Source: Myxococcota bacterium (GTDB lineage Bacteria > Myxococcota_A > UBA9160 > UBA6930). From it: a stretch of 64,000 bases of DNA. Position numbers and translations under genes: made by a program. Below are positions 6,280 to 64,000 of this stretch, piece after piece (position 1 is the first letter of the stretch; each line of letters begins with the position of its first letter). The notes below the pieces were generated by a model, which did not search any database, was not told where the DNA came from, and saw only the letters and a list, made by a program, of their open reading frames with translations. The stretch covers positions 124,001 through 188,000 of the forward strand of contig JANQOX010000021.1 of assembly GCA_028285625.1 (NCBI GenBank). Direction: 5' to 3'.

Positions 6280-6287
6280 GCGCCCGG

Positions 6288-6362
6288 CGCGGCCGATCCT
6301 CGGCACGCCCCCGCGCGGCCGATCCTCGGCACGCCCCCGCGCGGCCGATCCTCGGCACGCCG
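6288..6362. repeat. 26-bp tandem repeat, three copies, after a stop codon
   Basis: Units at 6288-6313, 6314-6339 and 6340-6362 share CGCGGCCGATCCTCGGCACG almost perfectly, and a decayed fourth copy (CCCGATCCTGGCAG) follows near 6369. The array occupies the space between the stop of the GT4 gene (6279) and the end of the convergent DUF2723 gene (6436). No spacer structure, so it is not CRISPR. Confidence 0.9.
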
Positions 6363-6435
6363 GCGTACGCCCGATCCTGGCAGCGCACGCGCGCGCCGGA
6401 CCCGGCGCGCACGATGGATGGGTACCGGCGTGGGG

Positions 6436-38662: not shown

Positions 38663-40186
38663 ATGCCCCCCATCGTCGAGACCCGCAGCGGAAAGGTCGA
38701 AGGCGCCGTCGAGGACGACGTCCAGGTCTTTCGCGGCATCCCCTACGCCAAGCCCCCGGTGGACGCCCTGCGCTTCGCCGCGCCCGAGCGCGAAGAGCCC
38801 TGGCGTGGCGTGCTCGAGGCCAAGGCCTTCGGCGCGAGCGCGCCCCAGCGGCCGGCCATGCTTCCCCTACCCGGGATGGACGTGGGTGCGATGGACGAGG
38901 ACTGCCTCTTCCTGAACGTGTTCACGCCGGCGGCCGACCAGGCGAAGCGGCCCGTGATGGTGTGGATCCACGGCGGGGGCTTCGTCATCGGCTCGGCATC
39001 CCAGACCCTCTACGGCGGCGCGCCCATCACCGCCCGCGGCGACGTGGTGCTGGTGACGATCAACTACCGGCTCGGGCCGCTGGGCTTCCTGCACCTGGGA
39101 GACCTGTGTCCCGACCTGCCCGGCGCGGTGGCCAACGCCGGCATTCGCGATCAGGTGGCGGCGCTCGAGTGGGTCCGGGAGAACATCTCGTCGTTCGGGG
39201 GCAACCCCGACGACGTCACGATCTTCGGCGAGTCGGCCGGGGGCATGAGCGTGGGCACACTGCTCGGGATGCCGAGCGCCCGCGGTCTCTTCCACCGCGC
39301 CATCCCGCAGAGCGGTGCCGCGCACAACGCCCACACGCGCGAGACCGCCACCGAGGTGGCGCGCCAGTTCCTCGCCGACGTGGGCTTCTCTCCGGCCGAC
39401 GCTCACAAGCTGCGCGAGGTGCCGCCGGACAAGCTGCTCGACATCCAACAGCAGACGGTGCTCAAGCTCGGGAGCACTGCGGGGCTCCTGCCCTTCCAGC
39501 CCGCCGTGGATGGGGACTCGCTGCCCGAGCCGGCCATCGATGCGGTGACGGCGGGGTCGGCAGCGGGCGTCGACCTGCTGACCGGCACCACGCGCGACGA
39601 GTGGCGGCTGTTCGGAATGCTCGACCCCGAGGTGGCGAAGCTCGATCTCGCGGGCCTGGTGCGCAGGCTGGCGGATCAGGTCGGCGGCGCGGCGGCTGCG
39701 GCCGAGGTGGTGGACGTGTATCGGCGCCATCGAGAGCCTTCGGGAAACGCCAGCCCCCAGGATCTCTACTTCGCGATCGAGACCGATCGGGTGTTTCGCA
39801 TCCCCGCGCTGCGGCTGATCGATGCCCAGCGCGCCCACTGCGAAGCCGCCTTCCTCTACCAGTTCACGTGGGCCTCGCCGGCCATGGGGGGTGCACTGGG
39901 CGCCTGTCACGCCATCGAGCTGCCGTTCGTGTTCGGGCAGACGCGCGCCGAGGGCGCCGAGTTCTTCATCGGTACGGGTCCCGAAGCCGACGCCCTGGCC
40001 GAGGTCACCATGGATGCCTGGACGGCCTTCGCGCGCTCTGGCGATCCGAGTCACCCGGGGCTTCCAGGAGGGCGCTGGCCCGCCTACGACGATGCCCGCC
40101 GCAGCACCATGTGCCTGGGCGCCGAATCGATCTGCGAGGTCGATCCCGAAGACCCCGAGCGCGCCGTCTGGGACGAGATCCTCTAG
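38663..40186 (+). CDS. Type-B carboxylesterase (alpha/beta hydrolase)
   Basis: 507 residues, the normal size for carboxylesterase type B. FRGIPYAKPPVDALRFAAPE, EDCLFLNVFTP, the oxyanion loop MVWIHGGGFVIGSAS, and the nucleophile elbow FGESAGGMSVG with Ser191. ALPFV-like GACHAIELPFVFGQ contains the catalytic His and ATTRDEW-type GTTRDEWRLFG the acid region. Hydrolyses carboxylic esters, possibly of xenobiotics; cellular location cytoplasmic because there is no signal. GGAG lies 8 bp before the ATG at 38663, which fixes the start. The 35 bp around its stop codon is tandemly duplicated downstream. Confidence 0.92.
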   Translation: MPPIVETRSGKVEGAVEDDVQVFRGIPYAKPPVDALRFAAPEREEPWRGVLEAKAFGASAPQRPAMLPLPGMDVGAMDEDCLFLNVFTPAADQAKRPVMVWIHGGGFVIGSASQTLYGGAPITARGDVVLVTINYRLGPLGFLHLGDLCPDLPGAVANAGIRDQVAALEWVRENISSFGGNPDDVTIFGESAGGMSVGTLLGMPSARGLFHRAIPQSGAAHNAHTRETATEVARQFLADVGFSPADAHKLREVPPDKLLDIQQQTVLKLGSTAGLLPFQPAVDGDSLPEPAIDAVTAGSAAGVDLLTGTTRDEWRLFGMLDPEVAKLDLAGLVRRLADQVGGAAAAAEVVDVYRRHREPSGNASPQDLYFAIETDRVFRIPALRLIDAQRAHCEAAFLYQFTWASPAMGGALGACHAIELPFVFGQTRAEGAEFFIGTGPEADALAEVTMDAWTAFARSGDPSHPGLPGGRWPAYDDARRSTMCLGAESICEVDPEDPERAVWDEIL

Positions 40187-40225
40187 CGCCCGACCGCGCC
40201 GTCGGGGACGAGATCCTCTAGCGCC
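40156..40225 (+). repeat. 35-bp tandem duplication of the esterase stop-codon region
   Basis: 40156-40190 (last codons, TAG and 4 bp) and 40191-40225 differ at two positions. The second copy is non-coding and repeats the segment GGACGAGATCCTCTAG. Confidence 0.92.
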
Positions 40226-48382: not shown

Positions 48383-48446
48383 GCAACGGCCCCCCGTCTG
48401 CGCTGCAACGGCCCCCCGTCTGCGCTGCAACGGCCCGCCGGTTCGG
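48383..48446. repeat. 22-bp tandem repeat, three copies, between divergent genes
   Basis: Units at 48383-48404, 48405-48426 and 48427-48446 (last one diverged) share GCAACGGCCCCCCGTCTGCG. The array lies between the start of the helical-protein gene (48304) and the ArsR gene (48508), about 60 bp upstream of the latter. Confidence 0.9.
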
Positions 48447-48507
48447 GGGGCATTCGTTATTTTGAGGATTCTGGAAGGTTGTGTGCAACCCGCAGCAGGA
48501 GCCCATC

Positions 48508-52914: not shown

Positions 52915-52985
52915 GGCGCCTAGCTTACGCGATCCCAGGCGATCGGGAACACGGCGCGTTCCGGTGGGCACTTGCCGAGGCGGCG

Positions 52986-53037
52986 CTCAGGAGGGCTCGT
53001 AGCCGAGGCGTCTCAGGAGGGCTTGTACCCGAGCGCC
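52986..53037 (-). repeat. 26-bp tandem duplication of the sulfotransferase stop region
   Basis: Copies 52986-53011 and 53012-53037 share CTCAGGAGGGCT and GTA-CCGAG. Read in the gene direction they give LGYKPS-stop followed by LGYEPS-stop; only the first is in the protein. Confidence 0.85.
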
Positions 53038-53930
53038 GGGTCGAGCCGCTCGGCGAGCATGGCCTCGAGCTCGCGCGCCTGCTCTTGGGTGAAGTCTTCG
53101 AGGTAGCCGCCGACCCGGGCGCGGCGCACCTTGAGCGTGTCCGGGTCGCTCCCGTCTCGCAGGCTCAGCGACTTGTTCTTGAAGTAGCCGTCGCGCTCGA
53201 GCCCGCGCATGTGGTCGACCGAGCCGAACGCGACGGCGTCGGCGATGGTGTCGTCGTCGAAGTCCTCTTCCAGGAACTCGGCGAGTCGTCGAAGGGCCCC
53301 GGCCGTGTCGCCGCGCAGGTCCTCGTAGGAGAGCACGAGCGCCGACGGGTGCTGCTGGGCCAGCTTCCACCACAGGTTGTGGTAGCGGATCACGTGGGGC
53401 AGCCCGATCTCTTCGTGCCGCACGAACGTCATCCGGTCGATGGTCTCGCGGTCGATGGGCGACTGCATCTCGGCCAGCAGCATTTCGCGCTTCATGGCGC
53501 TGGTGCGCTTGGTGAACTGGTTGTACCAGGACGTCGCGACGTCGATCGGGTGGCGCGGCATGAACAGGAGCTTCTTGCCGCGCAGGGTCGCGTCACTCGT
53601 GATGCGATCGACGAGGGGGCGCTCCCACGAGAGGTATCCGCTGCTGGTCAGGAAGCTCGGCAGGCCAGCGCGCGCCGAAGACAGCTCGTCGTAGCGGACC
53701 ACGCGATCCGACGGCAGGCCGTACTTGCGCGCATAGAGCCGCGTGATGAGGGCCCGCAGCCAGGTCCCGCCCGTCTTCGGGTGCCGCACGAACAGCACGT
53801 CCGCGCGAGACGCGATGCGCAGGTGCCAGCGCGAGAGCGCCGCATGGCGGCTGGCCACGCGAAGCCGGGCGGGGAGCACCGCGGTCGCGCCGAGGATCAA
53901 CGCACGCTCTTTGCGCTGGATGCCGGCCAC
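53013..53930 (-). CDS. PAPS-dependent sulfotransferase
   Basis: 305 residues. The 5'-phosphosulfate loop is FVRHPKTGGTWLRALITRLY (around residues 47-66) and the 3'-phosphate site includes FMPRHPIDVATSWYNQFTKR. DPDTLKVRRARVGGYLEDFT near the C-terminus is the usual end of Sulfotransfer_1 enzymes, with RxGxxxD contacts. It transfers sulfate from PAPS to an alcohol or amine on a glycan or lipid, which fits the sugar genes around it; a second, related sulfotransferase is encoded at 59166-60038. Soluble, cytoplasmic. The stop region is tandemly duplicated. Confidence 0.9.
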   Translation of the reverse strand: MAGIQRKERALILGATAVLPARLRVASRHAALSRWHLRIASRADVLFVRHPKTGGTWLRALITRLYARKYGLPSDRVVRYDELSSARAGLPSFLTSSGYLSWERPLVDRITSDATLRGKKLLFMPRHPIDVATSWYNQFTKRTSAMKREMLLAEMQSPIDRETIDRMTFVRHEEIGLPHVIRYHNLWWKLAQQHPSALVLSYEDLRGDTAGALRRLAEFLEEDFDDDTIADAVAFGSVDHMRGLERDGYFKNKSLSLRDGSDPDTLKVRRARVGGYLEDFTQEQARELEAMLAERLDPALGYKPS

Positions 53931-58758: not shown

Positions 58759-59090
58759 CCCGCACGCGCGGGCAGCCTCCGTGCGCTCGGTCCAGGGCTC
58801 GGGGTTGCGCTTGCTCTCGGCCGGAATGGGCGTGCTCCCGACGGAGGGGCCGCTCCCAGGGGGGAGCCCCAAGTTACCGGATCGAGCCCCGGCCGGTAGC
58901 CCGCGGAGCCCCCCTCGGGGAATCTTGTTTCCCCGAGGGGGCATGAAGAGGCCCAAGGCGTGGGGTTTGACCGCGGCCCAGCCCCCTTGCTATCGCCTCC
59001 CCACCCTCCCCCTGGCCCTCCGATCTCCGGTCCGCGAATGCGGCCCGGGTTCCACCTCCTGGAGGCGGCCCCATGCCCGTGAGGGTCCCG
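58759..59090. other. Intergenic region before the second sulfotransferase operon
   Basis: No supported gene. It holds the perfect hairpin at 58910-58941, then GC-rich sequence. Frames cross it in both directions, but the codon content is proline/glycine/arginine-rich without recognisable similarity. The tandem start-region array begins at 59091. Confidence 0.5.
58910..58941. terminator. 13-bp perfect inverted repeat, possible terminator or regulatory hairpin
   Basis: Arms 58910-58922 (CCCCCTCGGGGAA) and 58929-58941 (its reverse complement) enclose a 6-bp loop TCTTGT. It lies between divergent transcription units, so a simple terminator is not expected; a protein-binding or attenuation element is equally possible. 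Confidence 0.6.
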
Positions 59091-59187
59091 CGCTGATGTC
59101 CCTGCTTCCCCGAACCGAGGGGCTGCGCTGATGTCCCTCGTACCCCGAGCCGAGGGGCTGCGCTGATGTCCCTCGTACCCCGAGCGG
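59091..59187 (+). repeat. 35-bp tandem array carrying three translation-start units
   Basis: Units at 59091-59125, 59126-59160 and 59161-59187 (truncated) each contain GCTGATGTCCCT and, in the first two, GAGGGG 8 bp before the next ATG. ATGs fall at 59096, 59131 and 59166. The first two open 11-residue frames, MSLLPRTEGLR and MSLVPRAEGLR, whose stop TGA overlaps the next ATG as TGATG. The third ATG begins the sulfotransferase. Confidence 0.92.
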
Positions 59188-60038
59188 TCCGGGTCGGCGC
59201 CGCCCATGCGCTTCGCGGCCATCGCGAGCGCAGCAAGGCCCGGCGCTGCGACGTCATGGTGCTCTCGCGAGCGAAGAGCGGTCGCACCTGGCTGCGCGCC
59301 ATGCTGTCGCGCCTGTACCAGCAGCACTACGGCCTGCCCGAGGCCCAGTTGATCGAGTTCGACAACTTCCACCGCCAGTGCGAGGCGGTGCCCCGCATCC
59401 TGTTCACCCACGGCTTCTACCTGCGCGACCTGCTGGCCAGCGACGCCGGTCGTCGCCGCTTCGCGGACAAGAAGGCGCTGTTCCTCGTGCGCCATCCTTG
59501 CGACGTGGCCGTCTCCGAGTACTTCCAGTCGACGCGTCGCGCGAGCGAGCACAAGCGCGACCTCTACGGCGTGGACGAGGGTGCGGCGATGTTCGACTTC
59601 GTGATGGGCGGGGCGCTCGGCCTTCCCGGCATCCTCGAGTACCTGAACGCGTGGACGCCCGTGGTGTCGGCGCTGCCTCAGGCGAGGATCCTGCGGTACG
59701 AAGACCTGCGTGCCCGCCCGGCCGAGATGCTGGCGCCCGCGCTCGAGTTGCTCGGGGCGCCGTTCTCGGAGCAGACGGTCGACGAGGCGGTGGCGTTCAC
59801 GTCCTTCGACAACCTGAAGGAGCTCGAGCGGACCGACTTCTACAAGAACAGTCGGCTCAAGCCCAAGGACCCGAGCGATCCCGATTCGTTCAAGGTGCGC
59901 CGGGGCAAGGTGGGCGGGTACCGCGACTACTTCACGCCCGAGCAGGTGCGCGCCATGGAAGAGCTGGTGCGCACGCGTCTGGCTCCGAGCCTCGGTTACG
60001 GCCACGACGTCGCCACGGCGCCCGTGGAGCCGAGCTGA
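59166..60038 (+). CDS. PAPS-dependent sulfotransferase (second copy)
   Basis: 290 residues. LSRAKSGRTWLRAMLSRLYQ is the 5'-phosphosulfate loop (Lys replaced context SGRTW), FLVRHPCDVAVSEYFQSTRR the 3'-phosphate site and DPDSFKVRRGKVGGYRDYFT the C-terminal motif. It is related to the enzyme encoded at 53013-53930 (same length class and same end block), suggesting two acceptor positions or glycans. The ATG at 59166 is the third start unit of the tandem array. Its stop overlaps the next ATG as TGATG at 60036-60040. It is the first gene of a coupled operon with the surface carbohydrate protein, PhyH, oxidoreductase and cytidylyltransferase. Confidence 0.9.
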   Translation: MSLVPRAVRVGAAHALRGHRERSKARRCDVMVLSRAKSGRTWLRAMLSRLYQQHYGLPEAQLIEFDNFHRQCEAVPRILFTHGFYLRDLLASDAGRRRFADKKALFLVRHPCDVAVSEYFQSTRRASEHKRDLYGVDEGAAMFDFVMGGALGLPGILEYLNAWTPVVSALPQARILRYEDLRARPAEMLAPALELLGAPFSEQTVDEAVAFTSFDNLKELERTDFYKNSRLKPKDPSDPDSFKVRRGKVGGYRDYFTPEQVRAMEELVRTRLAPSLGYGHDVATAPVEPS

Positions 60039-61441
60039 TGCGCGGCGAGATGCTCCTGCTGCCGTGCGAGACCCAGGCCCGCGAGTTCGACGCCAAGCTC
60101 CTGCTGGCTGCCGCCGCCGCCGAGCGCGGGATCACTGCGATCGTGGGGGCCAAGAAGGAACTCGATCGCTGTCTCGGGTCGTTCCGTCGCGGCACGTATC
60201 TCTCGAAGAGCCTCACCGACCGCAATCTCGTCACCTACGAGCTTCTCCGGCGCCAGGGATTTGCCGTGGTGTGCGGCGACGAGGAGGGCCTGGTCTGGCC
60301 TTCGCCCGCCTCCTACCTGCACGCCAAGGTGAACGACGAGACCATGCGCAAGGCCGACCTGCTGCTGGCGTGGGGCGAAGAGAACGCGCGGGTGTGGCGC
60401 GAGTCACCGGGATTCTGCGGCCAGCCGATCGCGTCGGTGGGCAACGCCCGTGTCGACCTGCTGCGCCCCGAGCTTCGCGGTCTGCACCAGCCCACGGCAC
60501 AGGCGCTGCGGAAGCGGTTCGGCCGCTTCGTGCTCGTGAACACCAACTTCAGCCGGCTCAACCACTACCTGCCGCGGCAGAATCGCCAGCAGCGCAAGCT
60601 CGACGAAGCCCGCCGCGCCGCCGGGCCCGTGGACCCGAACGACCTCGACCTGGGTCTCGCGGCGCACAAGGCCGAGCTGTTCGCGGCGTTCAAGCGCATG
60701 CTGCCGGCCCTGGCCGACGCGCTGCCCGACCACCGGATCGTCGTGCGCCCCCACCCCTCCGAGCGCCAGGCGACCTGGACCGAGGCGGTGGCGGGACGCC
60801 CGAACGTGCAGGTGGTGTACGAAGGCAGCGTGGTCCCCTGGCTGCTCGCCGCCGAGGCCGTGGTCCACAACGGTTGCACCACGGCCGTCGAGGCCTATCT
60901 GCTCGACGCCCAGGCGATCGCCTACCAACCCGCGACCAGCGAGCGCTTCGACCTCCAGCTTCCGAACCTGATGTCGAAGCGCACCTTCGACCAGGAATCG
61001 CTGATCGAAGCGGTTCGCGCGCGGGTGGCCGGAGGCCCGGTGGTCGACCCCAACGAGCACGCCAAACAGGAAGAGCTGATCGACCAGTACGTGGCCTCGC
61101 GACGCGGCGCGCTGGCCGTGGACCGCATCCTCGACGCGCTCGCCGAGTTCGAAACCGGCAGTCGCGTCCATCAGCGCGTCGATGCGTTGCCCGCGCTCGG
61201 CGCGCGGACGGTGGTGGCGGGCCGGCGCATCATGCGGCTCGTGGAAGCGCGCATCCCCGGCCACCACAACAGCCGCCCCTACCTGCGGCACATGTTCCCC
61301 GGCGCGACCCGGTCCCAGGTCGAGTCGCGGATCGCCGCCTACGGCAGTGCCCTCGGGCGATTCTCGGGCCTTCGCGTGAGAGAGCGATTCGAGAACGTCT
61401 TCGAGGTGGGACCGGCGGTCGGCTCTGGAGCCGGGGCATGA
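60038..61441 (+). CDS. Surface carbohydrate biosynthesis protein (GT-B-like)
   Basis: 467 residues. MRGEMLLLPCETQAREFDAK opens a GT-B-like N-terminal domain of the surface carbohydrate biosynthesis family; the C-terminal half shows RIVVRPHPSERQATWTEAVA and AEAVVHNGCTTAVEAYLLDA, the nucleotide-sugar loop of CDP-glycerol/polysialyltransferase-type enzymes. It probably builds or modifies a capsule-like polymer. Translation is coupled on both sides (TGATG with the sulfotransferase, ATGA with the PhyH-like gene), so the products are needed together. It has no membrane helix. Exact donor unknown; a CMP- or CDP-linked sugar is plausible given the cytidylyltransferase two genes further. Confidence 0.82.
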   Translation: MRGEMLLLPCETQAREFDAKLLLAAAAAERGITAIVGAKKELDRCLGSFRRGTYLSKSLTDRNLVTYELLRRQGFAVVCGDEEGLVWPSPASYLHAKVNDETMRKADLLLAWGEENARVWRESPGFCGQPIASVGNARVDLLRPELRGLHQPTAQALRKRFGRFVLVNTNFSRLNHYLPRQNRQQRKLDEARRAAGPVDPNDLDLGLAAHKAELFAAFKRMLPALADALPDHRIVVRPHPSERQATWTEAVAGRPNVQVVYEGSVVPWLLAAEAVVHNGCTTAVEAYLLDAQAIAYQPATSERFDLQLPNLMSKRTFDQESLIEAVRARVAGGPVVDPNEHAKQEELIDQYVASRRGALAVDRILDALAEFETGSRVHQRVDALPALGARTVVAGRRIMRLVEARIPGHHNSRPYLRHMFPGATRSQVESRIAAYGSALGRFSGLRVRERFENVFEVGPAVGSGAGA

Positions 61442-62409
61442 GCTCCGCCGACCCCGGGCCCCGAAGCGCCCCGGTCTCGCTCCGGCCGATTCCGCGACCG
61501 GTTCGGGGACGGAGCCTGCACAAGCTGCTCTGGAAGAAGCTGCACTTGCCTCGCGCCTGGGTGCACCCGCTGCTCTCGGGCGCCAAGCATCTCGCCTCGC
61601 CCGCCGAGGTGCGGCTGCGCCGTGAACTGGCGCAGAGTCTCGACCCGAGCCTGGCGGCGGGGGGCATCGGTGGGATCCCCGAGGAGCGCGGCTTCCTGCT
61701 GCCCGCGACGGGCGCGATCCCGGGCATGGACGCCGCCGTGGCGCGATCCGTCGAGCTCTTCGAAGAGCGACGGGCCCACGAGACCGGCCGCGTCTTCAAT
61801 GCCAGCAAGGGGGGCTTCCTGCTCTCGGTCCTTTCGGGCGACGACTTCGCGGCCCATCCCGAACTGCTGCGCTTCATGGTGGGCCGGCCGCTGCTCGACG
61901 CGGTGAGCGCGTACTTCGGCGCGGTGCCTCTGTTGGCGGGCGCCGTGATCTGGTGGTCGCCGCCGAATCAGTCTGCGACGTCGAGCCAGCTCTACCACCT
62001 CGACAACGAGGACGCGCGCCAGGTCAAGGTGTTCGTGAACCTGTTCGACACCACGCCCGACCACGGACCCTTCACGTTCCTGCCGGCGGATGCTTCGCGT
62101 GCCGCGCAGTCGGCCCTGCGCGAGGGGCGCGGCCGGCTCGGCGACGACGAGGTCGCGCGCCTGGGTGGCCTGGCCGAGCAGCGCTCTCTGGTCGGGCCCG
62201 CGGGCACCGCCGGCTTGATCGATACGTCGCGCTGCCTCCACTACGGCAGCCGGGCCAACCGAGAGGGCCGTCTGGTGCTGGTCTTCCAATTCCTGCGCTT
62301 CGAGTCGCCCAGCGAGTCGACCTTCGGTTTCAGCCGGCCGCCGCTGCTTTGCGGCGAAGGGCTCGACGTCCACCAGCAGCTGGCGCTCGGCGTGCGAGCT
62401 GCAATGTGA
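61438..62409 (+). CDS. Phytanoyl-CoA dioxygenase-like Fe(II)/2-oxoglutarate enzyme
   Basis: 323 residues. The iron-binding H-x-D is in SSQLYHLDNEDARQVKVFVN and the second His with the 2-oxoglutarate Arg in SRCLHYGSRANREGRLVLVF, the spacing of the PhyH family. FDTTPDHGPFTFLPADAS lies between. It should hydroxylate a sugar, lipid or small molecule. Within this operon it may modify the glycan or its precursor, an inference. ATGA overlap with the previous gene. A gap of 86 bp follows. Confidence 0.82.
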   Translation: MSSADPGPRSAPVSLRPIPRPVRGRSLHKLLWKKLHLPRAWVHPLLSGAKHLASPAEVRLRRELAQSLDPSLAAGGIGGIPEERGFLLPATGAIPGMDAAVARSVELFEERRAHETGRVFNASKGGFLLSVLSGDDFAAHPELLRFMVGRPLLDAVSAYFGAVPLLAGAVIWWSPPNQSATSSQLYHLDNEDARQVKVFVNLFDTTPDHGPFTFLPADASRAAQSALREGRGRLGDDEVARLGGLAEQRSLVGPAGTAGLIDTSRCLHYGSRANREGRLVLVFQFLRFESPSESTFGFSRPPLLCGEGLDVHQQLALGVRAAM

Positions 62410-62495
62410 GCGGATCCGACCTCGACCCCCGAGGGGTTCCCTTCATCCAACCCAACGGCCCGAGACACGCGTTTCGGTAGCCTGAGCCGCCCATC

Positions 62496-63605
62496 ATGAC
62501 TGACCGCCCCCGCATCAAGATCTACGGCGCCGGATCGATCGGCAATCACCTCGCACACGGCTTTCGACGCCGCGATGCGGCGGTGGTGATCTGCGACCTC
62601 GACCCGGACGCGCTGCGCCGGACCCGCGACGAGATCCAGCCCGATCGTTACGGCGCCTTCGACTCCGAGATCCGCCTGGAGTCGTGTGACGCCGTGGCCG
62701 ACGAGACCGCCGACGTGGTGGTGGTGGGCACGCCGCCCGACACGCACCTGGCGATCGCCCGCGATCAGATCGCCCGCATCGCTCCGCGCGCGCTGGTGAT
62801 CGAAAAACCGCTGGCCACGCCCGACCTCGAGGGCTGCCAGGCGCTGGCCACGGCCGCCCGTGAAGCCGGGACGCGGGTCTACGTCGGCTACAACCACACG
62901 CTCACGCCCCACACCGTGCGGGCCGAGCAGTGGCTGCGAGAGCGTCCCATCGGCGCCGTCACCACGCTCTCGGCGCTGTTCCGCGAGCACTGGGGCGGCA
63001 TCTTCGGCGCGCATCCCTGGCTGTCGGGGCCGAAGGACACCTATCTCGGCTTCACGTCGCGTGGCGGCGGTGCCATTGGCGAGCACTCGCACGCGATCAA
63101 CATCTGGCAGCACTTCGCCCACGCCGCCGGGCTCGGCCGCGTGGCCGAGGTCTCGGCCATGCTCGACGTCGTCGAAGCCGATGGCGCGCGCTACGACCGC
63201 GTGGCCCAGCTCTCCGTTCGCAGCGAGTCGGGCTGCGTCGGCACCATCGTGCAGGACGTGGTGACGCGCCCCGCGCTCAAGTGGCTTCGCGTGCAGGGCA
63301 GCGACGGCTTCCTCGAGTGGGAGGTGAACGCCGGGCCCAGCCACGACGCCGTGCGCAGCGCGGCCGCCGACGGGGAGGTCGCCGAAGAGACCTTCGAGAA
63401 GACCCGACCCGACGACTTCCAACCCGAGGTCGATCACCTGCTCTCGGAGCTCGAAGCGCCCAGTGATGCCTCGCCGATCTCCCTCGAACGCGGCCTCGAG
63501 ACCATGTTGGTGGTCGCAGCGGCCTGGCGATCGCACGAGACCGGCCGGAACGTCCGGATCGACTGGGATCGCGGCTGCACGCTCGAGGCACTGGTCTCGT
63601 CGTGA
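62496..63605 (+). CDS. Gfo/Idh/MocA-family oxidoreductase
   Basis: 369 residues. IKIYGAGSIGNHLAHGFRRR is the Rossmann loop with AGSIG, VVVVGTPPDTHLAIARDQIA the following strand and RALVIEKPLATPDLEG the EKP motif with the catalytic Lys; VYVGYNHTLTPH begins the C-terminal sheet domain. NAD(P)-dependent oxidation or reduction of a sugar or nucleotide sugar. Its stop overlaps a GTG start for the cytidylyltransferase (GTGA), pointing to a shared role in making an unusual sugar such as a nonulosonic acid. Confidence 0.9.
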   Translation: MTDRPRIKIYGAGSIGNHLAHGFRRRDAAVVICDLDPDALRRTRDEIQPDRYGAFDSEIRLESCDAVADETADVVVVGTPPDTHLAIARDQIARIAPRALVIEKPLATPDLEGCQALATAAREAGTRVYVGYNHTLTPHTVRAEQWLRERPIGAVTTLSALFREHWGGIFGAHPWLSGPKDTYLGFTSRGGGAIGEHSHAINIWQHFAHAAGLGRVAEVSAMLDVVEADGARYDRVAQLSVRSESGCVGTIVQDVVTRPALKWLRVQGSDGFLEWEVNAGPSHDAVRSAAADGEVAEETFEKTRPDDFQPEVDHLLSELEAPSDASPISLERGLETMLVVAAAWRSHETGRNVRIDWDRGCTLEALVSS

Positions 63606-64000
63606 GAAACGAACGACGCATCCTGGCCGTGGTCCCCGCGCGCGGCGGTAGCAAGGGCGTGGCCACCAAGAACCTGCGTCCGGTCCTCGGCGTGCCGCTG
63701 GTGGTGCGCGCCGGACAGATCGCGGCCGAGCTCGACTGGGTCGATCGTGCGGTCTGCTCCACCGATCACGGTGGCATCACCCGCGCCGCGCACGACGCCG
63801 GGCTCGAGACGCCCTTCTTCCGGCCCCCGGAGCTGTCCGGCGATCGCGTGGGCGACCTCGAGGTGCTGACCCACGCGTTGCGCGAGACCGAGGCCGACGA
63901 CGGGACCCGCTACGACGTGGTGGTGATGCTCCAGCCCACGTCGCCGCTGCGCCGCCCCGAGCACGTGACCGCCACCGTGGACCGCCTGATCGCCGACGAT
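63602..64000 (+). CDS. NeuA-like acylneuraminate cytidylyltransferase, N-terminal part
   Basis: Cut by the right edge; 133 residues visible. ILAVVPARGGSKGVATKNLR holds the signature of CMP-nonulosonate synthetases (PARGGSKG with a lysine-rich loop), followed by AVCSTDHGGITRAAHDAGLE and VVVMLQPTSPLRRPEHV, which bind CTP and the sugar. It should activate a sialic-acid-like sugar as the CMP form for a glycosyltransferase. A GTG at 63602 overlaps the previous stop. The symbol is not given because the exact sugar and enzyme branch cannot be told. Confidence 0.85.
   Translation, partial: MRNERRILAVVPARGGSKGVATKNLRPVLGVPLVVRAGQIAAELDWVDRAVCSTDHGGITRAAHDAGLETPFFRPPELSGDRVGDLEVLTHALRETEADDGTRYDVVVMLQPTSPLRRPEHVTATVDRLIADD

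Follow-up and report, generated by a model that had tools for sequence, protein, structure and literature searches.

The question raised by this locus is why a sulfotransferase gene should be preceded by tandem copies of its own start, each of which closes exactly on the next. In the window, by which we mean the whole 64,000-nucleotide stretch of Myxococcota DNA that was analyzed and whose numbering is used below, these copies form a plus-strand array of 2.7 units of 35 bp (59090-59185; TRF score 164, 93% matches), the top-scoring array among 72 TRF rows. As a dinucleotide-resampled 268-kb contig yielded a single array of the same grade, whereas 71 were counted in 815 kb of the real DNA, the array is not attributable to chance.

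Anatomy of the array and the natural start of the gene

Direct reading together with a script identified three plus-strand mini-ORFs leading into the gene: a leader (mini-ORF 0, MPVRVPR*, 59073-59096), whose stop lies in a TGATG (59094-59098) shared with the next ATG; mini-ORF 1 (MSLLPRTEGLR*, 59096-59131), whose TGA overlaps the next ATG in the TGATG at 59129; and mini-ORF 2 (MSLVPRAEGLR*, 59131-59166), whose TGA overlaps the sulfotransferase ATG in the TGATG at 59164. The three junctions are stop/start overlaps of the 1- or 4-nt kind that serves as the criterion for coupled gene overlaps. A prior sequence-only reading had correctly described the 35-bp array, both 11-residue ORFs and the TGATG junctions, but the GAGGGG with an 8-nt spacer that it placed before each ATG precedes copies 2 and 3 only, copy 1 having GAGGGT and 9 nt upstream; likewise, the two upstream starts it described are present, but it overlooked a third, the ATG at 59073 with its mini-ORF and junction. 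Copies 1 and 2 are identical at 31 of 35 positions, and copy 3 matches copy 2 over 26 bp before running into the gene. Since the period of 35 equals 2 mod 3 and the frame is open, each mini-ORF ends exactly on the next start. Taken at one locus, such exact termination is a one-in-three coincidence that becomes meaningful only through a genome-wide pattern. One in three random periods would indeed produce it under a neutral explanation, which has translation begin directly at 59166 via its own GAGGGG and treats the copies further upstream as dead. The period of 2 mod 3 would then reflect chance, or else codon-phase microhomology arising at overlapping junctions with their 2 mod 3 difference between the frames of the two genes. 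We regard this as a possible but on balance doubtful account, and weigh it below against the wider data.

The gene itself (59166-60038, plus strand) encodes a member of the Sulfotransfer_1 family (PF00685, E 4.6e-23; 82.4 bits against a cut-off of 22). Its orthologs, at 69% identity in a species of the same genus and 60-64% in three other genomes (G035, G024, G059), align from residue 2-4 onwards, and mostly carry S-L-[VI]-P-[RK] near the N-terminus: S-L-I-P-K or D-L-V-P-Q stands opposite the S-L-V-P-R of the window protein, with the same-genus protein diverging there. This S-L-[VI]-P-like N-terminus at the matching place indicates that the third ATG, at 59166, is the natural start, and both 11-codon mini-ORFs are thus the duplicated head of the sulfotransferase gene followed by a short tail to the next TGA. 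No repeat was found at the gene start in any of the four near orthologs checked, which makes the array a derived, local feature. When the organism's whole genome was searched at the DNA level with the array region, only the sulfotransferase locus itself was recovered; the region upstream of the array gave no alignment with the same-genus relative, and neither a sigma-70 promoter nor an intrinsic terminator was found near the array.

These comparisons bear on two regulatory interpretations. According to the first, unit number sets sulfotransferase output and slippage alters it, making the array a copy-number regulator or phase-variable switch. A near-identical 35-bp array could in principle change its copy number, and the 26-bp match between copies 2 and 3 suggests an event more recent than the split of copies 1 and 2; nevertheless, the array is lacking from all four near orthologs, the relay would be kept with each unit gained or lost, such that expression need not change, and the same architecture occurs at housekeeping junctions such as SecY-Adk, an unlikely site for switching. 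We consider this reading improbable. The earlier proposals that copy number tunes the sulfotransferase and that slippage switches it accordingly lack support, given orthologs without the array and mini-ORFs that are simply a duplicate of the gene's head, and the comparison of array copy number among relatives that had been envisaged found no repeat in the four near orthologs. The second interpretation, in which the mini-ORFs specify small functional peptides or an amino-acid-sensing attenuator, can draw on their being open and having plausible ribosome sites, but they are pieces of the enzyme's own N-terminus, they contain no regulatory codon run, and the region has an ordinary fold and no Rfam family at its gathering score; this we judge very improbable indeed.

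Our preferred reading, to which we assign a probability of roughly 0.57, is that the array is a self-made duplication of the start region that has been tolerated because its phase keeps termination-reinitiation intact, rather than having been selected as a regulator. The sulfotransferase's own start region (ribosome site, ATG and about eight codons) would have been duplicated in tandem in this lineage by the kind of short duplication that occurs commonly in this genome, and with a period of 2 mod 3 and a TGATG within the unit, every extra copy would become a mini-ORF ending in a stop that overlaps the start after it.

Ribosome sites and RNA structure

Building on this anatomy and phase, and on the genome-wide bias described below, we infer that the mini-ORFs are translated and that reinitiation follows at each junction. 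Ribosomes would load mainly at the ATG at 59073, or at any copy, and step from one TGATG junction to the next, three in all, until they reach the sulfotransferase. The leader has the best Shine-Dalgarno match, a TGGAGG at 59060-59065 on the plus strand (GGAGG at 59061), whose duplex with the 16S tail (-10.2 kcal/mol) is stronger than those of 81% of the called starts in the genome sample and is the strongest of the four at the locus, the others having -6.2 (59096), -7.7 (59131) and -7.7 kcal/mol (59166). With a genome median of -7.1 kcal/mol the site of 59166 is about average, as would suit direct initiation in the neutral account. All predicted Shine-Dalgarno sites at the locus, including that of the leader, are buried in structure. 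A predicted plus-strand hairpin at 59133-59158 (GUCCCUCG/CGAGGGGC, -13.2 kcal/mol) sequesters the copy-3 Shine-Dalgarno by pairing it to the opening codons of mini-ORF 2, and might be opened by translation of that mini-ORF. Its z-score ranges from -1.2 to -2.0 with the segment chosen, and the fold of the wider array region is ordinary (z -0.17).

Passage from stop to restart, as the sequence-only reading had supposed, gains plausibility from the coupling demonstrated by experiment at overlapping TGATG/ATGA junctions in other prokaryotes (PMC6728339, PMC10666635) and from the phased duplications found throughout this genome. In reporter work coupling is all but lost at a spacing of about 20 nt, and it needs no more of the upstream gene than its final 15 nt (PMC10666635); inserts of 20-38 nt should therefore break coupling unless they relay. 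Weaker effects of distance are reported in other studies covered by a review (PMC12548453). At the sulfotransferase locus the need for coupling is less clear than where two genes meet, because there is no upstream cistron, just the 7-residue leader ORF. TGATG junctions are normal in this operon, as the sulfotransferase itself ends in a TGATG (60036-60040) on the next gene (60038-61441, plus strand; no Pfam match).

Period phase of duplications across the genome

The survey covered 2.40 Mb (42%) of the same genome, with 1984 genes called by a home-made, heuristic codon model. It contains 161 arrays of period 15-100, i.e. 6.7 per 100 kb, compared to 1.6 in Sinorhizobium pSymB. Arrays are rarer inside genes (79 observed versus 134 expected) and enriched at gene ends and between genes. 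By period mod 3 (classes 0/1/2) they number 76/1/2 within genes, 13/8/9 covering a stop only, 20/7/7 in intergenic DNA, 3/0/4 covering a start only and 4/0/7 at stop/start junctions. The start-only and stop/start arrays taken together, at 7/0/11, thus differ from the 33/15/16 of the stop-only and intergenic arrays in both class 2 (Fisher p 0.009) and class 1 (p 0.033), figures to be read knowing that the phase hypothesis arose from the first 815 kb and that later data contributed just a few arrays. An independent scan of the 1984 starts for an upstream copy placed 11 of 14 cases in class 2, against 11/13/9 at stops (Fisher p 0.0013); the sole class-1 period in it is 52, that is, two 26-bp units.

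The commonest gene spacings in this genome are -4 (248 pairs) and -1 (37 pairs). A 2 mod 3 duplication at an ATGA or TGATG would create a unit running from the downstream gene's head to the upstream gene's tail and terminating on the next start, whereas a 0 mod 3 duplication would lengthen the downstream protein, and after a 1 mod 3 duplication a ribosome that had restarted would be out of frame and run on beyond the true start. Among 13 stop/start arrays, ten relay stop to start, two are in-frame extensions and one is a failure; when 282 plain junctions were duplicated at random in silico, 41-43% of the products relayed (p 0.009-0.015 versus 10/13), although a generous definition of relaying does not by itself discriminate, being satisfied by 12 of 13 arrays and by about 0.75 of the random duplications.

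About a dozen further gene junctions of this genome have the same phased arrangement, which suggests that duplications survive where ribosomes can still step through. Junction arrays lie between real gene pairs, for example SecY-Adk, PrfA-PrmC, RelA/SpoT-GT2 (glycosyltransferase), DnaJ-MerR_2 and two ABC pairs; their units differ from one another, and examples of their mini-ORFs are MSVEPAA*, present twice, and MSRAGVRG* followed by MSRAGARG*. At C2:119163 (L071:19163-19315) the spacings are unequal (37, 35 and 38 nt) and the internal ATGs are lost, yet the stop/start chain between the two genes is still perfect; at C10:103803 the relay survives spacings of 33 and then 26. The single junction array that breaks the rule, L145:12703-12763, repeats 30 bp from the tail of the upstream gene and leaves the next start outside the unit. 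Relay mini-ORFs are also seen in housekeeping operons, at L124:9269-9357 between SecY and adenylate kinase and at L124:4091-4129 directly before ribosomal protein L29. No start duplications were seen in the small samples taken from G035 (200 kb) and G001 (110 kb).

The neutral explanation has several points in its favor here. Duplications flank genes also where a relay is impossible, for instance behind stops: at 40154-40225 the final codons of a gene together with its stop (DEIL*) are repeated in tandem with a 35-bp unit, and at 52974-53033 a 26-bp tandem copy repeats the 3' end (LGYxPS*) of another sulfotransferase gene, which lies on the minus strand (53013-53930). The main doubt is a mutational one: across these junctions coding periodicity likewise makes 2 mod 3 the favored class for microhomology, and null models requiring 5-8 bp of it make class 1 rarer, the 8-bp null, with few distinct sites, having no class 1 at all. 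On the other hand, 5-6 bp microhomology gives only about 0.36-0.39 of class 2 against the 12 of 15 observed, and the phase bias remains in gaps that show neither repeat similarity nor coding composition. Two out-of-frame arrays were also noted in the window, one of 26 bp x 4.5 in intergenic DNA (6281-6395) and one of 22 bp x 2.6 (48383-48440) lying some 40 bp upstream of an ORF at 48481, by eye an ArsR-type regulator.

The gap analysis took same-strand gaps of 8-100 nt without a detectable repeat and asked in which phase a linking ORF would have its start overlap the upstream stop and its stop overlap the downstream start. Of 47 linkable gaps 31 are in the relay phase and 11 and 5 in the others (p 5e-6 versus one third). 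Because the size of the in-frame class depends on which starts are chosen, the fair contrast is between relay and out-of-frame gaps, at 31:5; alternative rules for picking starts give 31:7 to 13:5. No phase bias is seen in control gaps of 101-300 nt (4:2:4), nor in the gaps of Sinorhizobium pSymB with the same gene caller (7:7:9; Fisher p 0.01 versus this genome). The bridging ORFs are not coding-like in composition, and codon composition ruled out their being frameshifted gene tails or missed small genes; a possible excess of 41-nt gaps revealed no common motif. These apparently decayed, non-repeat gaps favor, without proving, selection over a mutational origin of the phase bias. More tentatively, at somewhat under even odds, short tandem duplication may be frequent at stop/start junctions throughout this lineage, with selection for ribosome hand-over keeping mainly those of 2 mod 3, such that the genome would be dotted with relay mini-ORFs, many decayed beyond repeat detection.

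Relationship to known systems and the surrounding operon

The closest parallel is with the mycobacterial MIRUs, short repeats at gene starts with a stop/start-coupled ORF, which is thought to make their insertion harmless to expression (review PMC12548453, citing its ref. 77). Like them, the array carries ORFs overlapping stop-to-start with what follows (59094, 59129, 59164). MIRUs are, however, described there as apparently mobile and common to many loci (PMC12548453), whereas this array occurs at its own locus only and the other junction arrays have unrelated units; as there is no shared dispersed sequence, it is best viewed as functionally similar to a MIRU without being one. Known ATGA/TGATG termination-reinitiation overlaps use the same motifs, with -4 and -1 being the commonest spacings there too (PMC6728339, PMC10666635), but join two genes directly, whereas the array interposes extra stop/start units. 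In leader peptide reinitiation and with ORF-11 of the integron attI1 (PMC4833913; PMC8876359), a short ORF likewise hands ribosomes to the next start. These are single leader ORFs, unlike the serial copies of a gene's own start seen here. Synthetic bicistronic designs similarly have a leader mini-cistron that stops where the target gene begins, but they are engineered and have one unit. A limited literature search found no paper on phased self-duplications at gene junctions.

Were the phase filter real, sequence alone would tell which junctions depend on stop-restart translation, and very short, non-coding-like relay ORFs of 5-20 codons would be maintained between genes, among them housekeeping pairs like SecY-Adk. 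It would further offer an evolutionary answer on ribosome scanning past junctions, as free scanning over 20-40 nt would make the duplication period irrelevant, and the lineage would represent a natural genome-wide test of termination-reinitiation.

Upstream of the array, in the interval that separates the sulfotransferase operon from a divergent gene of the ELM1 family, lies a perfect palindrome (58910-58941; 13-bp arms, 6-nt loop) that is unique in the sampled genome and has no T run after it. An overlapping sub-threshold Rfam match to HIV_FS2 (58907-58943) was judged to be a GC-rich hairpin rather than a family member. Downstream, the operon at 59166-64000, comprising the sulfotransferase, two ORFs without Pfam matches, a GFO/IDH/MocA oxidoreductase and a cytidylyltransferase, resembles those for surface polysaccharide synthesis.
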